IMG/VR virus record: IMGVR_UViG_3300019759_000016
Span: 1 to 26,538 of that record
Length of the DNA: 26,538 nucleotides
Strand: one strand, 5' to 3'
Origin: a virus
The notes beneath the pieces were generated by a model, which saw nothing but the letters and a program-made list of their open reading frames with translations, did not search any database and was not told the DNA's origin. The position numbers and the translations under genes were made by a program. Shown here piece after piece: positions 3,870-16,010 of the stretch. Position 1 is the stretch's first letter, and every line of letters begins with the position of its first letter.

Positions 3870-4013
3870 ATAAACCGGAGGCTGATCTTTGTCACGTCTC
3901 CAATTATCATCTTTCCACTTACAATCCTTCCGGTCGGAGCACAGTTTTAAACGCTGTGTTTCGATTGGGTGACAAACAGAGCCGCACTTTGGGCATGGTT
4001 TCACCGGATTCAT
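3864..4013 (-). CDS. Small zinc-ribbon protein, Lar-like
   Basis: A 49-codon gene on the minus strand. Its start overlaps the stop of the upstream winged-helix-like gene as ATGA, a typical translational coupling arrangement that supports its reality. Near the N-terminus it has KPCPKCGS, then C14 H15, C25 and C31, a Cys4-type zinc site. The KPCPxCGS opening resembles the Lar-like zinc-ribbon family found in many phages (Lar of Rac alleviates type I restriction), but so short a motif cannot prove that role. The C-terminal half is rich in Lys, Asp and Trp. The last codons overlap a perfect hairpin shared with the convergent tailspike gene. Confidence 0.7.
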   Translation of the reverse strand: MNPVKPCPKCGSVCHPIETQRLKLCSDRKDCKWKDDNWRRDKDQPPVYG

Positions 4014-4387
4014 GTGGTCATTTCCAAGTATTCATTCATAGGGATGTAAACTCCAGCATCCTTGCCGTAGTAGGTTATGATAGCTTTTTGATTTCTGTTC
4101 TCAATCATGTCGTTTGACATCTCACGTATATGCCTTCTTGGCAGGTTTATTACATCTTTGTTTGAAACTAATGACTCAAAGAATGCTCTTGGCTGACCCT
4201 GAAGTCCTGGTATTTTTTCATAGTGAACAGAAAGAAAGCCAGCTTTTGAGAGCGTCATTAATGCTTGGTAAATACCAGCATAGCAATATTCATATTTAAA
4301 TTTAGCAACCGCTTCAGATATTCTAAATCTTTCTTTTCTTGATAAGCACCATTCTAGTAATCGCTTCTTTTTTTCTGTCATGTACAT
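4010..4387 (-). CDS. Putative winged-helix DNA-binding protein
   Basis: A 125-residue protein if started at the ATG preceded by AAGGTGG with 5-nt spacing; an in-frame ATG 30 bp upstream lacks such a site. Residues 1-60 (TEKKKRLLEWCLSRKERFRI, then SEAVAKFKYEYCYAGIYQAL) read like a helical bundle with a turn. They are followed by a strand-loop-strand (GFLSVHYEKIPGLQGQPRAF) as in winged-helix domains. The remainder has no recognised motif. It is last but one in the leftward operon and couples to the zinc-ribbon gene by ATGA. A regulatory role is an inference from the fold-like pattern only. Confidence 0.6.
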   Translation of the reverse strand: MYMTEKKKRLLEWCLSRKERFRISEAVAKFKYEYCYAGIYQALMTLSKAGFLSVHYEKIPGLQGQPRAFFESLVSNKDVINLPRRHIREMSNDMIENRNQKAIITYYGKDAGVYIPMNEYLEMTT

Positions 4388-4443
4388 TATATCCACCTTA
4401 TTCTTACTACTTAACAATACTTAATTGTGGTCTTTCTTGGTTT

Positions 4444-4501
4444 TATAACACAGTCATTAAGCACGACTTCGCTACGCTCGCGGCTTAATAGACATGTTAT
4501 A
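4444..4501 (-). repeat. attC-like folded element D
   Basis: A 58-bp element between two small minus-strand genes. In gene orientation it starts with TATAAC, which contains the stop codon of the 66-codon gene, and ends with GTTATA. Inside, GTC-T-ATTAAGC pairs with GCTTAATGAC, leaving a single unpaired base in the 5' arm. The middle holds GCCGCGAGCGTAGCGAAGTC. Outer boxes, inner TTAAG/CTTAA arms and one extrahelical base are the architecture of integron attC sites. The outer boxes are GTTAT-type, not the usual GTTRRRY. The inner 24 bp match element C with one mismatch. Confidence 0.6.
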
Positions 4502-4697
4502 ACTCAATATTGTTTAGAGCATTAACTTTAATCTCAACGCCTTCTGGGTCAATGTCTTTAAAGTTATCTCTAATTATCTGCTTGCAGGCATCAATTAACT
4601 CAAACTCTTTTAAGTCAACGGTCACGCAACCAAAGTAGAACTTGTTAATATCAATACCGTCCCAAAAATCAAATTGTAAAAAATACTGTTTCTTCAT
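4497..4697 (-). CDS. Hypothetical 66-aa protein in an attC-like module
   Basis: Unrecognised acidic small protein (MKKQYFLQFDFWDGIDINKF at the start). The N-terminus looks like beta-strands and residues 28-47 (DLKEFELIDACKQIIRDNF) like a helix, so a compact alpha/beta domain is likely. The ATG is preceded by GGTGATGAGAT. Its stop TAA lies inside the TATAAC box of element D, and element C sits directly upstream. It is therefore a single gene flanked on both sides by related folded repeats, the layout of an integron cassette. No function can be assigned. Confidence 0.65.
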   Translation of the reverse strand: MKKQYFLQFDFWDGIDINKFYFGCVTVDLKEFELIDACKQIIRDNFKDIDPEGVEIKVNALNNIEL

Positions 4698-4716
4698 ATC
4701 TCATCACCATTAAAGT

Positions 4717-4773
4717 TATAACAACACACTCTTGTGGACTTCGCTGCGCTCGCGGCTTAACAGGTGTGTTATG
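4717..4773 (-). repeat. attC-like folded element C
   Basis: In gene orientation it begins CATAACACAC, contains TTAAGCCGCGAGCGCAGCGA in its 5' half, and ends GTGTGTTGTTATA, so the outer 5-10 bp are complementary. The core from 4737 to 4760 differs from the same stretch of element D by one transition. The left box CATAAC holds the stop codon that would end the neighbouring 92-codon gene if its internal amber codon were read through. Confidence 0.6.
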
Positions 4774-4810
4774 TGTCGTACTTCCTCTTGAGTTCTTCAA
4801 GCTGTTTAAG

Positions 4811-5089
4811 CTATCGCTGTTTTACAAGCGCTGCTCTATTCTGTTCTTTTGATTCCCTAACTTTCGCCTCTTCCTCAGTCTCAGGTCGGTAGTAGTAGAT
4901 TTCTATCGCAGCGTAAGAGCTATCCTCATAACCAGATACAGATTCCAGCTCAACTTTAGCGCTACTCCTAAATTCTTCTGGAATGGAGCTTATTTTTTCC
5001 TCAAACCATTCAAGAAACTTAATAGCATTCTCTTCAGGCCATTCACCTTGATACTGTTCTTTATTAAAAACTTCTATTTTAATGTCCAT
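4811..5089 (-). CDS. Hypothetical 92-aa acidic protein, probably shortened by an in-frame amber codon
   Basis: The start is the ATG at 5089, preceded by GGAGGT at good spacing; longer in-frame versions would run into element B. The N-terminus (MDIKIEVFNKEQYQGEWPEE) and middle suggest an alpha/beta fold. The C-terminus is a charged helix (ETEEEAKVRESKEQNRAALV). Directly after the TAG stop, the same frame continues 13 codons (LKQLEELKRKYDT) with the same helical character. It then ends at TAA inside the CATAAC box of element C, exactly where neighbouring genes end. An original product of about 106 residues is therefore likely. Function unknown. Confidence 0.65.
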   Translation of the reverse strand: MDIKIEVFNKEQYQGEWPEENAIKFLEWFEEKISSIPEEFRSSAKVELESVSGYEDSSYAAIEIYYYRPETEEEAKVRESKEQNRAALVKQR

Positions 5090-5106
5090 CTTTGCACCTC
5101 CAAGCG

Positions 5107-5206
5107 CATAACAAAAAAATGTTGCCGACTTGCTCGCTCCGTTCATGTCTTAATTTCAGGTTATGAACCATCCGGAATAACCGGACGGCTTAACAGGTGT
5201 GTTATG
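5107..5206 (-). repeat. attC-like folded element B (composite)
   Basis: In gene orientation it runs from CATAACACACCTGTTAAGCC, the same opening as element C, through a CCGTCCGGTTATTCCGGATGG-like hairpin. A second CATAACCTGAAATTAAG half-site, shared with element A, follows. It ends in TTGTTATGCG just before the ribosome binding site of the next gene. It looks like a fusion of the halves of two sites, as if an intervening module had been lost or two elements had recombined. Confidence 0.5.
5149..5188. repeat. 40-bp perfect direct repeat, copy 1
   Basis: This stretch starts CTTAATTTCAGGTTATGAAC and ends AACCGGACGG. It is identical over 40 bp to 5440..5479. It contains a GC-rich hairpin (CCATCCGG, AATAA-type loop, CCGGACGG with one G-U pair) and a CATAAC/GTTATG box. 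The two copies bracket the 54-codon gene. Confidence 0.9.
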
Positions 5207-5207
5207 T

Positions 5208-5372
5208 TTATTCCTGCTCAAGCTTGATGTTGATTTTAATGTCGTTTCCTTTTCCGTCATCCGAATTAAGCATTGCCACTTTCGACCCCTCTGCTACTCC
5301 ACAATAGCCGTATGCTGAATTAAGTTTGCGCGCAGCATAAGCAATAATATCTTTCAGTATTTCGTTTTCCAT
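5208..5372 (-). CDS. Hypothetical 54-aa protein in an attC-like module
   Basis: Small minus-strand gene with AAAGGTGATCTAA before its ATG. The product starts MENEILKDIIAYAARKLNSA, a likely amphipathic helix. It continues through YGYCGVAEGSKVAMLNSDDG and ends in alternating charged strands (NDIKINIKLEQE). No family recognised. It is a single gene bracketed by attC-like elements A and B and by two identical 40-bp repeats, so it can be pictured as one exchangeable unit downstream of ssb. The stop is 1 nt from the ACATAAC opening of element B. Confidence 0.6.
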   Translation of the reverse strand: MENEILKDIIAYAARKLNSAYGYCGVAEGSKVAMLNSDDGKGNDIKINIKLEQE

Positions 5373-5402
5373 TTAGATCACCTTTCTGTTTAATTAAAAA
5401 AA

Positions 5403-5456
5403 TATAACAACAAATTCAAATCGGGCACATTATGTGCAGCTTAATTTCAGGTTATG
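5403..5456. repeat. attC-like folded element A
   Basis: On the plus strand it reads TATAACAACAAATTCAAATC, a GCACATTATGTGC palindrome, then CTTAATTTCAGGTTATG. AAATTCAA pairs with TTAATTT leaving one unpaired C. This is the same pattern as the TTCAAG/CTTAA boxes and extrahelical base of canonical integron attC sites. Outer boxes are TATAAC and GTTATG. Confidence 0.6.
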
Positions 5457-5487: not shown

Positions 5488-5958
5488 TTATCCTTGGTTA
5501 TTATGCATTTGTTGAACCTGCTGAGGATTCATAGGCTGCCCGTTTTGCTGCATGTACCCCTGTTGTTGATAGCCTTGGTTTTGATTAGGTTGATACCCGT
5601 TGTTTTGAGGCTGCTGATAGCCTTGGTTTTGAGCTGGCTGATTCGGGCTAAACACATAACCAAGACGAGCGTTAAGCATGTCAATACTAAGGACTGGGCC
5701 GTTATTTCCATCAAAAGAATCAATTTTTAATTGCTCCGCCGTAACTTCTACAATCGCACCTTCAATCAGTGCGTTTTGATAAAACTGTACTTGCCCTGGA
5801 GCTTTAGCAAATATCACGGCTTGGTAGTTTGTCCATTCATCTTGCTTTGTTTTAGGATCTCGATACTTAACACCTAATCGAATACTAAACCCTGTTGATT
5901 CCCCAGCTTGGAAAACATTAGCTGGTTTGTTTAATTTGCCTGTGATTGTTGTTGACAT
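5488..5958 (-). CDS. ssb: Single-stranded DNA-binding protein
   Basis: A 156-residue protein with an OB-fold-like N-terminal domain of about 105 residues (TGFSIRLGVKYRDPKTKQDE, then WTNYQAVIFAKAPGQVQFYQ). A Gln/Asn-rich low-complexity tail made of NQGYQQ-like repeats follows. It would coat single-stranded DNA during phage replication and annealing. The tail ends HNNQG and lacks the acidic DDDIPF-type tip that docks host partners onto bacterial SSB. The gene overlaps the exonuclease stop by one base (TAATG) and forms an Erf-Exo-SSB recombination operon. Identification rests on fold-like pattern plus context; fairly sure. Confidence 0.85.
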   Translation of the reverse strand: MSTTITGKLNKPANVFQAGESTGFSIRLGVKYRDPKTKQDEWTNYQAVIFAKAPGQVQFYQNALIEGAIVEVTAEQLKIDSFDGNNGPVLSIDMLNARLGYVFSPNQPAQNQGYQQPQNNGYQPNQNQGYQQQGYMQQNGQPMNPQQVQQMHNNQG

Positions 5959-6578
5959 TATTCACCCTCTAGCTTGTTTAAAATTTTATTCATTTTATTT
6001 ACGAATTCTTCAATTTTAGATTTCATTTCGTTTATGTATTCTTCATCCCTTTCTACTTTTTGAAGTAAGTAGCTTGCTTTGCAATCAAGGCGCGGATCGA
6101 AGCTTAAAAAGTAACAGTATTTTCTATCACTAACCCAAAGCTGCATTTGTATTTGTGCTTTGTAGTCCTTGCTGTAATCGTTTGTAAGCGCCCTTTTTAT
6201 CTGGGTTGATGTATTAGGGCATTTAATCTCTAAAAGCCCGTCATCACCTATCAGACCGTCAGGAGAGACACCTATAAACTCGCTATGCTCTATGAATGCA
6301 ACTTCATCAACAAGAATACCTTCCTTTAGCTCAAACATTGACCTAGCGGCTATCTCGTTTTCTGTGCCCCACTTCATTGCATCATTTTCAAAGAATGGCT
6401 TAGGCTCTCCGGTTAACCGCTCCGCTATTAATTCCATCATGTAAGACTCGGAAGTTTTAGAAGGAGCACCGCCGCGCCCATTTGTCATAATATCTTTGAC
6501 TCTCGAGGCTGTTATCTTTCCAAGCCTTGCGGCTTTCCACTCGTCTGAGCCTTGTTCGAAATCTGTGATTATTTTCAT
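5958..6578 (-). CDS. YqaJ/lambda-Exo type 5'-3' exonuclease
   Basis: A 206-residue alkaline-exonuclease-family protein that would resect double-stranded ends and hand single strands to the annealing protein. The family motifs are present in order: SDEWKAARLGKITASR (11-26), KWGTENE (69-75), SPDGL with Asp107, LEIKCP with Glu117 and Lys119, and QIQMQLWV (142-149). These carry the Asp, Glu and Lys of the two-metal active site and the usual downstream glutamines. Length fits lambda Exo (226). The start overlaps the erf stop as ATGA and the stop overlaps the ssb start, so translation is coupled along the operon. Confidence 0.95.
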   Translation of the reverse strand: MKIITDFEQGSDEWKAARLGKITASRVKDIMTNGRGGAPSKTSESYMMELIAERLTGEPKPFFENDAMKWGTENEIAARSMFELKEGILVDEVAFIEHSEFIGVSPDGLIGDDGLLEIKCPNTSTQIKRALTNDYSKDYKAQIQMQLWVSDRKYCYFLSFDPRLDCKASYLLQKVERDEEYINEMKSKIEEFVNKMNKILNKLEGE

Positions 6579-7168
6579 TGTGAGGCCAACTTATAAACTT
6601 CTTCATATCTCTTAGCTTTTAGTTCGCTAAGATGGCCTATCTTATAGGCTTTACTAACCATGATTCCTTTTTGATTCCATGAATAACTTCCATCATTATT
6701 AGCGTTACATAGAAGGCCAAGCAACGTATTATATTGTTCGGTGTTGATTAAGTTTATATCTGCCATATCTGCGCGGCTTTCATCGTTCAAACCAGTTTCA
6801 ATACAAAACGTCTTGAGGTGTGCTGTTTTAGCAGCATAGGTGATTGCTTTGCCTGGTGCTTTATCTCCGGAGTCCATTGCATGAGACTCTACAAAGACAG
6901 TTATTCTATCGGCCGGATTATCTATATTTACGTAGTTAACGTTAAAATCACATTCATAAATATAATTGCCTTTAGCATTCTGTCTTGATCGTGATTCGCC
7001 AGACTTATGAACCTCGACTACAATTCCCTCTCTAATAAGATACGGAGTTAAAATAGCAAGTAATTCATCATGCAAAACCCCTGTCCCTTGCCCTGCCGAT
7101 CCTTTCTTGATGTAAATATTTTCCCTCATGACAGCATTAATACGCTGATAGATATTAGGCTTCTCCAT
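6575..7168 (-). CDS. erf: Erf-family single-strand annealing protein
   Basis: A 197-residue ERF-superfamily recombinase, started at the ATG preceded by GGAGGAGAAAG; a longer in-frame form would intrude 36 bp into the upstream gene without a ribosome site. The family signature GKAITYAAKTAHLKTF lies at 106-121. It is preceded by GQGTGVLHDELLAILTPYL and a Gly/Ser-flanked strand region. Erf proteins form rings and anneal complementary strands, here working with the adjacent exonuclease and SSB. The C-terminal third is helical and ends LKAKRYEEVYKLASQ. It overlaps the preceding 94-codon gene by 14 bp and the exo start by 4 bp. Confidence 0.9.
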   Translation of the reverse strand: MEKPNIYQRINAVMRENIYIKKGSAGQGTGVLHDELLAILTPYLIREGIVVEVHKSGESRSRQNAKGNYIYECDFNVNYVNIDNPADRITVFVESHAMDSGDKAPGKAITYAAKTAHLKTFCIETGLNDESRADMADINLINTEQYNTLLGLLCNANNDGSYSWNQKGIMVSKAYKIGHLSELKAKRYEEVYKLASQ

Positions 7169-7439
7169 CTTTCTCCTCCATATACTCTTCAATATGCGCA
7201 GCAATTATGTTTATTGATTCCTCAGATAAAAGGAATTTAATATCAATAAACCAATAGTCATTTCTTGCATATACAAAAATTACTTCAACTCTTGCACCTT
7301 CACTCTCCGGATGTATGCGCCCATTATCACAAATAGACTGATCTCCATAAGCCTTCTCATATGTGTAATCAATATCAAGCTCACAATCCAATCCGATCTC
7401 TTTTGTATCAAGGCCTATTTGTTTAGATGTTATGTTCAT
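7155..7439 (-). CDS. Hypothetical 94-aa protein, first gene of leftward operon
   Basis: No family recognised. The sequence is acidic (net negative) with predicted strands (ARVEVIFVYARNDYWFIDIK) followed by a C-terminal helix (ESINIIAAHIEEYMEEKDGE). The ATG is preceded by GAGGAGATATAG. As the first gene after the leftward promoter it should be expressed immediately after infection. Its 3' end overlaps erf by 14 bp. A role accessory to recombination or host takeover is possible but not shown. Confidence 0.7.
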   Translation of the reverse strand: MNITSKQIGLDTKEIGLDCELDIDYTYEKAYGDQSICDNGRIHPESEGARVEVIFVYARNDYWFIDIKFLLSEESINIIAAHIEEYMEEKDGEA

Positions 7440-7464: not shown

Positions 7465-7492
7465 ATTATAAGCATTAAATTATACTTGTCAA
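7465..7492 (-). promoter_or_regulatory. Leftward early promoter
   Basis: On the minus strand, TTGACA (7492-7487), a 16-bp spacer and TATAAT (7470-7465) match sigma70 hexamers perfectly. It would drive the 94-codon gene, erf, exo and ssb. Its -35 overlaps the -35 of the rightward promoter. Confidence 0.8.
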
Positions 7493-10195: not shown

Positions 10196-10291
10196 GTGTC
10201 TAAAGTTTAACGTGGTCGATACTTAATAACTTTTAATCTGGCTGATCAGTATCTCGGTAGCATGTGAGAACCCAGAAGACACAATCCTTTT

Positions 10292-10423
10292 CTAAATGTG
10301 TATTGAAGAGCTTTAGCAGTGGTCTGGGCGCGTAGCTAGCGTTACTTAAGGTTCGATTCCTTAACTAGATTGGGTATCAGTTCTGGTTCGATTCCAGATA
10401 AGGCTCTATCAATACACATTTAG
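10292..10423 (+). ncRNA. tRNA-like structured RNA on a 24-bp stem
   Basis: CTAAATGTGTATTGA (10292-10306) is perfectly complementary to 10409-10423, and AGAGCTTTA (10307-10315) pairs with TAAGGCTCT (10399-10407) with one G-U. Only A10408 is bulged, giving a 24-bp stem. Inside are two arms with the same 7-nt loop TTCGATT, typical of a tRNA T-arm: TTAAGG/CCTTAA (10346-10364) and TCTGG/CCAGA (10382-10398). A TAGC/GCTA-type arm lies to the left. The inner acceptor-like stem plus T-arm resembles a tRNA, but the arms and loops are the wrong length and no CCA follows. It may be a degenerate tRNA or a tRNA mimic. Confidence 0.6.
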
Positions 10424-10444
10424 CCTTTCTATTTCCACGCCTTT

Positions 10445-10521
10445 AGGCCAATAGCATAATTGGTTAATGCACTCGGCTCATAACCGAGATTATGACAGTT
10501 CGATTCTGTCTTGGCCTACCA
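10445..10521 (+). tRNA. tRNA with CAU anticodon, probably tRNA-Ile(AUA)
   Basis: Complete cloverleaf: acceptor AGGCCAA/TTGGCCT, D-arm with AATTGG loop, anticodon arm CTCGG-CTCATAA-CCGAG, T-arm GACAG-TTCGATT-CTGTC, and an encoded ACCA end. A CAU anticodon can mean initiator Met, elongator Met or the lysidine-modified Ile that reads AUA. The acceptor has C4-G69 and C5-G68, the pairs known as TilS determinants in E. coli tRNA-Ile2. This favours Ile(AUA) over Met, and AUA is common in the genes of this window. It is inserted between two structured RNA stretches. Confidence 0.9.
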
Positions 10522-10529
10522 TTACATTT

Positions 10530-10780
10530 TCCAAGTTAAAACTCGTTCGGGTATACCAACGGTAGCGAGAATAAACAACTATGTGGCGTTTCTACGGCCT
10601 TAGAGCCATCAAATAGAGCGAATTAAACTTGGACTGCCAGAGCGTTACCATAGCTTTAGTAACGGCGACAAACAGAGCTTATGCTGAATGAAAAATCTTA
10701 ATTGGAGTAGTGACCAGTTAAGTCATGAGGATTTGGTGCTTTCCTCGGCTGATGCCCCGTAAAATCTAGCCAAAATTAGT
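10530..10780 (+). ncRNA. Candidate structured noncoding RNA downstream of the tRNA
   Basis: No credible gene from the tRNA to 10983. An 8-bp stem, TCCAAGTT/AACTTGGA (10530-10537 with 10626-10633), closes a domain. That domain holds a layered hairpin (CTAT, TGGC, TCTA pairing with TAGA, GCCA, ATAG; about 10579-10617). Next come CGTTAC/GTAACG around 10644-10665 and CTTAATTGG/CCAGTTAAG around 10697-10722, enclosed by AAATC/GATTT. Several nested stems in a row suggest a folded RNA. Size and tRNA association recall large phage RNAs such as GOLLD, but no signature was matched. From 10781 to 10927 I see little except AT-rich sequence. Confidence 0.45.
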
Positions 10781-10927
10781 ATTTCTGATTATAGAGTATG
10801 CTGGCAGGCAAAAGAGATTAAATAATTAGAGCGGTTAGGAATGTGATTGTTTATTCATTCAGCCCCGTTACTAAATGTTAAGTATTGTCAAAAATAATCC
10901 AATCCAAAAAAAGTCTAAAAATAAACT

Positions 10928-14344: not shown

Positions 14345-15091
14345 ATGACAGATCAAAAAAATAACACTGGCAACCGGAACACTGGCAACCGGAACACTGG
14401 CGACTGGAACACTGGCTACTGGAACACTGGCAACCGGAACACTGGCGACTGGAACACTGGCAACCGGAACACTGGCAACCGGAACACTGGCGACTGGAAC
14501 ACTGGCGACTGGAACACTGGCGACTGGAACACTGGCAACCGGAACAATGGCTACTGGAACACTGGCAGCCGGAACACTGGCAACCGGAACACTGGCTACT
14601 GGAACACTGGCAACCGGAACACTGGCAACCGGAACACTGGCAACTGGAACACTGGCAACCGGAACACTGGCTACTTTAATATCGAAACACCTAAAACGAT
14701 TATGGTGTTTGACAATGAAATTGATATATCTGAATGGAATGAATGCGTTAAACCAAATTTTATTTATTTTGATTTAACAGAGTGGGTTGATGAGTCAGTA
14801 ATGACACAAGAAGAAAAAGATAAAAACGATGATTATGGAACTGTTGGTGGTTATTTAAAGAAAAAAGATTACAAAGAGGCATTCCAAGAATCATATAAGA
14901 ATGCATCAAAAAAAGACAGGGAGAAAATCTTTAATATTCCTAATTTTGACGCAGATAAGTTTTTTGAGATTAGCGGTATTGATGTTCGAAAAGATGCTGA
15001 AAAAGAAGATAAGAAAAATTCTCTTCTTGAAAAGCTCAAGAGCCTTATCGATAAGGCTGAAGAGCTAAAAAAAGAAGCGAATAATTTATAA
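14345..15091 (+). CDS. NTG-type pentapeptide-repeat protein with charged C-terminal domain
   Basis: 248 residues. Residues 7-111 are 21 tandem pentapeptides of the form N-T-G-x-x, where the last two are NR, DW, YW, SR, NW or finally YF; one unit is NNGYW. Such pentads are expected to form a right-handed quadrilateral beta-helix. Residues 112-248 (TPKTIMVFDNEIDISEWNEC, then TGGYLKKKDYKEAF-like segment, and NFDADKFFEISGIDV) form the non-repeat domain found with these repeats in phage proteins. The end is a Lys/Glu coiled-coil. GAGGAGATAGAAA precedes the ATG. Function unknown; DNA mimicry as in Qnr/MfpA is only an analogy. Confidence 0.85.
   Translation: MTDQKNNTGNRNTGNRNTGDWNTGYWNTGNRNTGDWNTGNRNTGNRNTGDWNTGDWNTGDWNTGNRNNGYWNTGSRNTGNRNTGYWNTGNRNTGNRNTGNWNTGNRNTGYFNIETPKTIMVFDNEIDISEWNECVKPNFIYFDLTEWVDESVMTQEEKDKNDDYGTVGGYLKKKDYKEAFQESYKNASKKDREKIFNIPNFDADKFFEISGIDVRKDAEKEDKKNSLLEKLKSLIDKAEELKKEANNL
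14363..14677 (+). repeat. 21 tandem 15-bp units encoding pentapeptides
   Basis: The unit is AACACTGGC plus NAC YGG (the last unit ends TTT). Apart from one AAC replacing ACT in unit 13, variation is confined to the three or so bases that choose NR, DW, YW, SR or NW. Such near-identity at silent positions indicates recent copy-number change by slippage or unequal exchange. Whole-unit changes keep the frame. Confidence 0.95.
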
Positions 15092-15201: not shown

Positions 15202-15232
15202 GAACAGTGAATTGTTATGTGGCGATAGGGGG
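15202..15232 (+). repeat. Module leader repeat, copy 1
   Basis: GAACAGTGAATTGTTATGTG followed by GCGATAGGGGG. It matches 20362..20392 at 26 of 31 positions and all five differences are transitions. It supplies the GTTATG box and the ribosome site of the following zinc-binding gene. Confidence 0.7.
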
Positions 15233-15236
15233 AATT

Positions 15237-15455
15237 ATGAGCGGCGACGAAGAGAAAGAAGAACATTTTATTTTTACTATGGATGGTTCTGTGCACACCA
15301 AAAGAGAATTTACTGATTGCTGCTGGAATGAAGGCGAATGCCCTAAGTGTGGAAAACCTATGCATACGCAAGGTGCTTATGGTGTTTTGCTTGAGCGTTG
15401 TGAAAACACTGACGAGAAATGCAGTAATGGTGGAGTAATTGATTGGGACACATAA
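15237..15455 (+). CDS. Small Cys4 zinc-binding protein in an attC-like module
   Basis: 72 residues from the ATG preceded by AGGGGG; in-frame codons further upstream fall in the leader repeat. Residues GECPKCGKPMHTQ and LLERCENTDEKCSNGG supply four cysteines arranged CxxC...CxxxxxC, as in treble-clef or ribbon zinc sites. The stop codon TAA lies inside the CATAAC box of element E. Leader and ending are homologous to those of the gene at 20401, although the proteins differ. Function unknown. Confidence 0.7.
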   Translation: MSGDEEKEEHFIFTMDGSVHTKREFTDCCWNEGECPKCGKPMHTQGAYGVLLERCENTDEKCSNGGVIDWDT

Positions 15456-15503
15456 CCCTTAAATTTACGGCGCGAAGCGTCCAGGCATGATTGTTTTGTT
15501 ATA
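15451..15503 (+). repeat. attC-like element E
   Basis: Starts with CATAAC (containing the preceding stop codon), continues CCTTAAATTTACGGCGCGAA with an ACG/CGT inner stem, and ends TTTTGTTATA. The inner arms are more decayed than in elements A and D, but the outer boxes and length (53 bp) match. Confidence 0.45.
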
Positions 15504-15523: not shown

Positions 15524-15826
15524 ATGTTATTGATAACTAGGCAAATCCTAGCTAATGAAGCAGCAAAACGATGGGGAAAACAGTACCCTCCAGATAGATG
15601 GCCAGATAAGCAATATGTGCTAAGGCAGCTAACAGAGTTAGGTGGTAATTGTGATGCTGATGAAGTTGATAAGATTATAGGCAATGGGAGCTGGACGACA
15701 ACAGAGTGTCATGAGTGCGGCAATGATGAGGGTGTTGATGTAGTCCAGGTTGGGCAACAGCTAGATTATGAGAGTAGTACAGCGAATGTTTGTAAGAGCT
15801 GCTTAAGAAAAGCTTTAAACCTATAA
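15524..15826 (+). CDS. Phage protein with C-terminal zinc finger (100 aa)
   Basis: The ATG at 15524 has GGAGGACAAT upstream. The N-terminal part is helical (TRQILANEAAKRWGKQYPPD). A C-terminal Cys4 site, TECHECGNDEGVDVVQVGQQ and VCKSCLRKALNL, follows. The 'ECHECG...VVQxG...DYES.TA.VCxSC' arrangement recurs in small phage proteins of unknown function. The stop codon is inside the TATAAC box of element F, and element E lies before it, so the gene is flanked by related folded elements. Confidence 0.75.
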   Translation: MLLITRQILANEAAKRWGKQYPPDRWPDKQYVLRQLTELGGNCDADEVDKIIGNGSWTTTECHECGNDEGVDVVQVGQQLDYESSTANVCKSCLRKALNL

Positions 15827-15868
15827 CAACGAAAGTTAAGCCGCAAGCGGCGCGCTTAACGAGGGGTT
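15822..15868 (+). repeat. attC-like element F
   Basis: TATAACAACGAAAGTTAAGC, then CGCAAGCGGC, then GCGCTTAACGAGGGGTTT. GTTAAGC pairs with GCTTAAC and CGC with GCG, giving a strong hairpin with the TTAAG/CTTAA arms seen in the other elements. It aligns along its whole length with element G at 20573. Confidence 0.6.
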
Positions 15869-15872
15869 TAAA

Positions 15873-16010
15873 ATGTGGTTAATATATTTATATGGTGATG
15901 GACTAGTAACAAAAGATGAATTTTTAAATGATTTTAAATTCTATATTTGCATTTGGTTGTGGTTGATCGTTTTGCCTTCAGTTATTTATGTGAATATTTT
16001 TAGCGTTTAA
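15873..16010 (+). CDS. 45-aa single-pass membrane peptide
   Basis: MWLIYLYGDGLVTKDEFLND then a hydrophobic helix FYICIWLWLIVLPSVIYVNI. GAGGGG upstream, contributed by the 3' end of element F, is a usable ribosome site. The N-terminus also looks amphipathic. Not recognised; membrane location expected. Confidence 0.55.
   Translation: MWLIYLYGDGLVTKDEFLNDFKFYICIWLWLIVLPSVIYVNIFSV

Follow-up and report, generated by a model that had tools for sequence, protein, structure and literature searches.

Two candidate CALIN-type attC clusters with antisense genes in a phage genome fragment

The window analyzed here is the whole 26,538 nucleotides of a linear IMG/VR fragment (26.5 kb) representing the incomplete genome of a marine phage. 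Phage genes flank the finding on both sides, including those for the terminase large subunit (23512), NinG, a helicase loader, and an endolysin. The single-stranded DNA-binding gene ssb is the last conserved phage gene ahead of a series of small accessory genes that follow it on the minus strand. It is approximately 70% identical at the DNA level to Vibrio phage genes and, together with the YqaJ and ERF genes upstream (PHROG 44, 149, and 155), forms a neighborhood that is also found in a related phage contig, L003. A perfect sigma-70 consensus promoter (TTGACA-16-TATAAT; 7465–7492, minus) faces this recombination/ssb/cassette operon and is overlapped by a divergent plus-strand promoter match (11/12). 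Elsewhere in the fragment there are few ORFs across 10204–10884, where a lone tRNA-Met (CAT) gene is located (10445–10521), and the protein encoded at 14345–15091 carries about 20 pentapeptide-like repeats of the NTGNRNTGDW/Y type, its DNA being internally 93% repetitive.

Genes were called as simple ORFs with an RBS, and a codon usage score was trained on confident phage genes. This score was positive solely in the minus frames of 4010–4393, 4497–4697, 4811–5092, and 5208–5372, and solely in the plus frames of 15237–15455 and 15524–15826. Neither plus-strand protein had a PHROG match, and that of 15524–15826 had no Pfam match. A half box, GTTATG (15214–15219), precedes gene 15237–15455. The genes and elements are as follows, with each cassette gene assigned to its own site.

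Array 1, 4.4–5.5 kb, minus-strand operon: putative CALIN-type cluster
4010–4393, minus: gene downstream of A, last unit or operon gene
4444–4501, plus: element A, palindromic hairpin with R-like ends, possible degenerate attC
4497–4697, minus: cassette gene, 66 aa, own site B
4717–4773, plus: site B, attC whose left arm is intact but whose right arm is mismatched
4811–5092, minus: cassette gene, ~93 aa, own site C, RBS GGAGGTG
5107–5207, plus: site C, composite or decayed attC (core 5107–5165, hairpin, and second right arm 5189–5206)
5208–5372, minus: cassette gene, 54 aa, own site D, RBS AAGGTGAT
5403–5456, plus: site D, attC, R'' TATAACAA ... R' GTTATG, antisense to its own gene 5208–5372
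5488–5958, minus: ssb
5958–6578, upstream of ssb: YqaJ (RecE/YqaJ) exonuclease
6575–7204, upstream of ssb: ERF (Erf-like protein)
Array 2, around 15.2–15.9 kb, plus-strand operon: putative CALIN-type cluster
15237–15455, plus: small Cys-rich gene, possible zinc ribbon (by eye)
15451–15503, minus: site E, best attC in the window, own gene 15524–15826 antisense
15524–15826, plus: cassette gene, 100 aa, own site E

Two models of the attC site were applied. A paired-site model was trained on 216 sites, taken from integron loci of chromosomes and from two chromosomal integrons captured by prophages, and an Infernal covariance model (CM) was built separately from 48 of the 216 chromosomal attC sites. 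The former recovers three attC of phage TJE1; the latter gave 84 matches at E<=0.1 in a chosen set of 44 phage sources and a single match at E<=1 across 325 kb of control phage DNA. Ranked by CM over the 26.5 kb, site E came first (18.7 bits, E 0.004), D second (16.3 bits, E 0.019, from chromosomal sites alone), and B third, with E and D matching above background. Site E, which lies between two plus-strand genes, had gone unnoticed in the original prediction. The paired-site model concurs on E (22.9–26.0, 0/300 shuffles) and D (25.3 bits, a score reached by 0/300 gap shuffles), lends some support to C, and lends none to B or A. A tyrosine recombinase (PF00589), and hence intI, was not found on the incomplete 26.5-kb fragment, which therefore does not hold a complete integron.

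The four elements predicted downstream of ssb are present on the minus-strand operon, but their proposed attC identity survives only in part: D is good, B is borderline (CM 14.4 bits, E 0.06), C is weak and composite (CM 11.3 bits, E 0.46; paired-site model 8.5, 3/300 shuffles), and A hardly fits (CM 6.7 bits, E 8). Array 1 has one firm (D), one borderline (B), and one weak site (C), with E 10 kb off. Both D and E display inverted R''/R' and L''/L' boxes, a GTT core, and an L'' arm bearing an extrahelical base, features that are weak or missing in A, B, and C. Site D comprises R'' TAAC, a 3-nt mismatch, a 5-bp stem (AAATT), a left-arm extrahelical C, L', and R' GTTATG, and folds with z = -3.1/-5.2 on its two strands. 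An unpaired base had been described in both A and D. In A, despite its strong fold (z -4.5), the sole attC-like hallmark is an R' core TTA (4497–4499) that doubles as the stop codon of gene 4497–4697. The left arm of B (TAACAACACACTC TTG T GGACTT) is good and resembles sites of two related contigs (L003 and L118), and B is 86% identical to A over 36 nt; folding of B and of C was no better than that of shuffles. The sequence shared by C and D, originally given as a 24-bp core with one mismatch, is in fact an exact 40-bp direct repeat (5149–5188/5440–5479), consisting of the right arm of D and the 21-nt hairpin CCGTCCGGTTATTCCGGATGG that follows ssb. Site C also holds a 22-nt identical copy of the right arm of B, and the repeat copy within it suggests, from sequence comparison, that homologous exchange between sites may have taken place. 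Only E and D are statistically firm in the window; with the other three elements weak or degenerate, array 1 may have decayed in part. In array 2, a strong stem (GTTAAGCCGC/GCGCTTAAC; 15822–15875) follows gene 15524–15826; it begins TAACAA and misfits the attC model, and is possibly a degenerate sense site.

The earlier worry that GTTAT boxes are non-classical is unfounded because no R' boxes are commoner in the chromosomal set than GTTATG and GTTATA (92/216 sites). Other searches were negative or nearly so: an Rfam scan of the window found no match to an attC-like family, an exact pattern derived from A/B was absent from the viral contigs searched, and array 1 DNA showed no useful similarity to phages and plasmids. 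The canonical right-arm pattern GGCGTTATG had 13 matches in viral contigs, with 0 attC according to the site model and one borderline according to the CM.

In a canonical cassette the gene is sense to its attC and its stop codon lies near R''. This polarity is not seen at D and E, where the TAACAA (R'') end, whose arm carries the extrahelical base, is directed toward the gene start, so that both sites are antisense to their genes. The placement of each attC 3' of one gene, as first proposed, is thus reversed, the own gene being the one whose start adjoins the site. At chromosomal integron sites, genes that are sense to their own attC outnumber antisense ones by 192 to 15, whereas phage contigs with Infernal matches have 71 antisense, 9 sense, and 6 undecided sites, and 35/40 phage contigs are mostly antisense. 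Fisher's test on the decided sites yields p 9e-42, which is only indicative because sites within one contig are not independent. Sampling with a left-arm pattern that is blind to gene direction gave 45 antisense vs 9 sense. Two of the viral pattern samples had antisense sites as their starting point, and the second viral sample, retrieved with the right arm of such a site, is not orientation-neutral. A matched chromosomal control based on that left-arm pattern, too small by itself at 4/369 genomes, contained one attC-scoring locus with two sites, both sense. The strand of the site flips with that of the operon in the window and in L195, and less clearly in L196. At 50 sites of the viral set, the R' core TTA is the exact complement of the stop codon of the neighboring gene, as occurs in the window at A (gene 4497–4697) and E (gene 15237–15455). 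According to GenBank annotation, which was used for PH101, TJE1, M16-3, and Va p16, PH101 has four sites on the plus strand with neighboring CDS on the minus strand, i.e., antisense; the sites of TJE1 are sense, and antisense polarity is thus not universal. Collectively, this suggests a special pool of "backward" gene cassettes common to phages. One sense cassette (1285–1689) was observed in the otherwise antisense array of L117, encoding a 105-aa membrane-like protein and carrying the most canonical attC (47 bits); it is a possible recent import from a host integron. A search of open-access literature yielded no report of antisense phage cassettes or of an R'-core stop codon; while phage attC clusters themselves have been known since 2023, the antisense polarity and the fusion of stop codon and R' appear to be unreported.

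Arrays of the same kind in related phage contigs allow the unit to be delimited. One gene with its site (261 bp, 91% identity) is common to contigs L177 and L181, where it extends from one GTTA to the following one and has different attC neighbors and unrelated flanks. This unit ends at the site by the gene's start, and a gene therefore belongs to the attC adjoining its start; the same evidence led us to reject the converse assignment, to the gene with its stop adjacent to the site. In L141 and L154, a block of similarity begins at the G of the crossover. Two further pairs (L003/L104 and L003/L118) have in common just the 60–73-bp site, at up to 97% identity, between unrelated genes. The comparison of gene-plus-site modules proposed earlier thus bears out exact units in related phages but not for the window itself, whose own cassettes had no DNA-level relative in phages; we infer their movement from that of the class. 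The broader claim of an integron-type array in a phage is supported by attC matches, an architecture shared with chromosomal integrons, and module boundaries at the R' crossover in related contigs, with the corrections that A and B are weak and C is composite. Array DNA of L104 and L117 gave nothing informative against isolate phages, and an MGMYTEI-type cassette protein of L104 was discarded as a tracer of movement, being widespread in unrelated phages. Cassette genes in L003 (6089–6495) and L118 (8985–9057) begin within their attC, such that the R'' arm gives unrelated proteins a common N-terminus (like MESPKERVVM). L181 contains a 695-bp duplication (1655–2349 and 4506–5200; 85% identity) near attC sites.

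The folded bottom strand of attC is the substrate of the integron integrase IntI, which cuts at G^TT. With a probability of about 0.8, we regard the window as carrying two CALIN-type attC clusters with antisense genes, the units of which are moved by a host-supplied integrase. A unit would comprise one small gene and one attC, cut by the host enzyme at G^TTA of the folded bottom strand, and would move as a circle or by exchange. The gene starts next to the R'' end (TTGTTAT-RBS-ATG), and most phage units have a TAA stop complementary to the R' core (GTTA) of the far crossover point, so that a unit could be inserted or removed without upsetting its neighbor's frame. A PF00589 protein was absent from 12/13 contigs (the contigs being fragments), from which reliance on host IntI is presumed. 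Host IntI is a plausible enzyme of acquisition. IntI1 recombines phage attC sites (PMC9892861). We infer recent activity and offer the reason for the inversion as a hypothesis: the recombinogenic bottom strand would be the coding (non-template) strand, single-stranded during transcription, and, if genes run with the fork, the lagging-strand template, which may favor folding and recombination. Inversion of the V. cholerae SCI, which places the bottom strand onto the lagging template, increases excision (PMC11023631). Rather more tentatively, and at somewhat less than even odds, phages may maintain a cassette pool of their own, characterized by antisense genes, R'-core stops, and a bottom strand on the lagging template, that turns over rapidly and is traded with other phages and host integrons during infection.

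A simpler alternative to this strand hypothesis is that the sites are true attC and the antisense bias reflects selection for expression, with only reversed-gene cassettes being kept in arrays that lie against the operon. Phage early operons are read in one direction, approximately 7% of chromosomal cassettes have antisense genes that could seed such arrays, and the single sense cassette of L117 sits amid an antisense array. Selection of this sort nevertheless predicts that sense arrays, being more easily filled, should be the commoner, and the 45:9 excess of antisense sites in the direction-blind sample runs the other way; we consider this explanation unlikely. A similarly doubtful reading is that the elements are decayed relics of old cassettes (CALIN fossils) that are now immobile. 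The departures of A, B, and C from attC architecture, with C a chimera of B and D repeats, and a contig without an integrase are what fossils would look like, yet D and E retain the complete paired architecture, including the extrahelical base, and other phages contain entire units placed precisely between different attC in different contexts, from which it follows that the class is mobile now or was so recently.

Recombination of attC-like sites by another enzyme, either host XerCD or a phage recombinase encoded beyond the fragment, is less probable still. Recognition may indeed differ, in that many phage sites have GGGTTA or TGGTTA in place of the GCGTTA of chromosomal integrons; however, TJE1 sites likewise do without the GC and are recombined by IntI1 (PMC9892861), and a PF00589 protein was lacking in 12 of the 13 contigs. 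Finally, every element is palindromic and intergenic, and A folds strongly, as would be expected of ordinary intrinsic terminators or REP-like hairpins. No terminator-like site was detected at A–D on the gene strand, however, the only one in 4.2 kb being on the opposite strand (2.6 expected by chance), B and C fold no better than shuffles, and D and E match the attC model. The terminator reading, which we consider barely credible, was rejected on account of the gene strand.

DNA methyltransferases and a Mom-like modification protein are found among the cassette products of this class, along with a protein weakly matching Lar (restriction alleviation), and the arrays may therefore serve in the exchange of anti-defense genes. 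If host integrases do shuffle these cassettes, the neat swapping of the many tiny genes of phages would acquire a concrete enzyme and site, and a route to finding the genes that are swapped. Reversed polarity would also alter how integron finders read phage arrays, and the strand bias of integrons, until now studied in engineered chromosomes, would gain a natural case.

The closest known systems are the CALINs of virulent phages TJE1, P12002L, and PH101, in which five of six tested phage sites recombine with IntI1 (Qi et al. 2023, PMC9892861). The sites that recombine include two proven IntI1 substrates in TJE1 and two attC of PH101 (PMC9892861), the assayed PH101 pair being unmatched to the coordinates used here. 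Like the arrays described here, these CALINs lack an integrase and pair attC with small cassette genes within a phage genome. The PH101 array was described as typical, without reference to gene-to-attC polarity (PMC9892861), whereas we find antisense polarity to be a feature of the window, of PH101, and of the majority of sampled IMG/VR contigs; the fusion of stop codon and R' core in the present phage arrays likewise distinguishes them from CALINs as described in that study. Sedentary chromosomal integrons of Vibrio and Shewanella, examples of which have been captured by prophages (Va_90-11-286_p16 and M16-3), share with the phage arrays the R''/L''/L'/R' architecture, the extrahelical left-arm base, GTTATG, one small gene per site, and the sharing of sites alone between unrelated genes. 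They differ in that their genes are sense (192 vs 15) rather than antisense, and in possessing intI and attI, neither of which was seen on the phage fragments. In the engineered inverted integron of V. cholerae, as is proposed here, attC bottom strands are on the lagging-strand template (PMC11023631); there, the entire array was inverted artificially and its genes remained sense, whereas in the phages the antisense arrangement is natural and applies to each gene relative to its own site.
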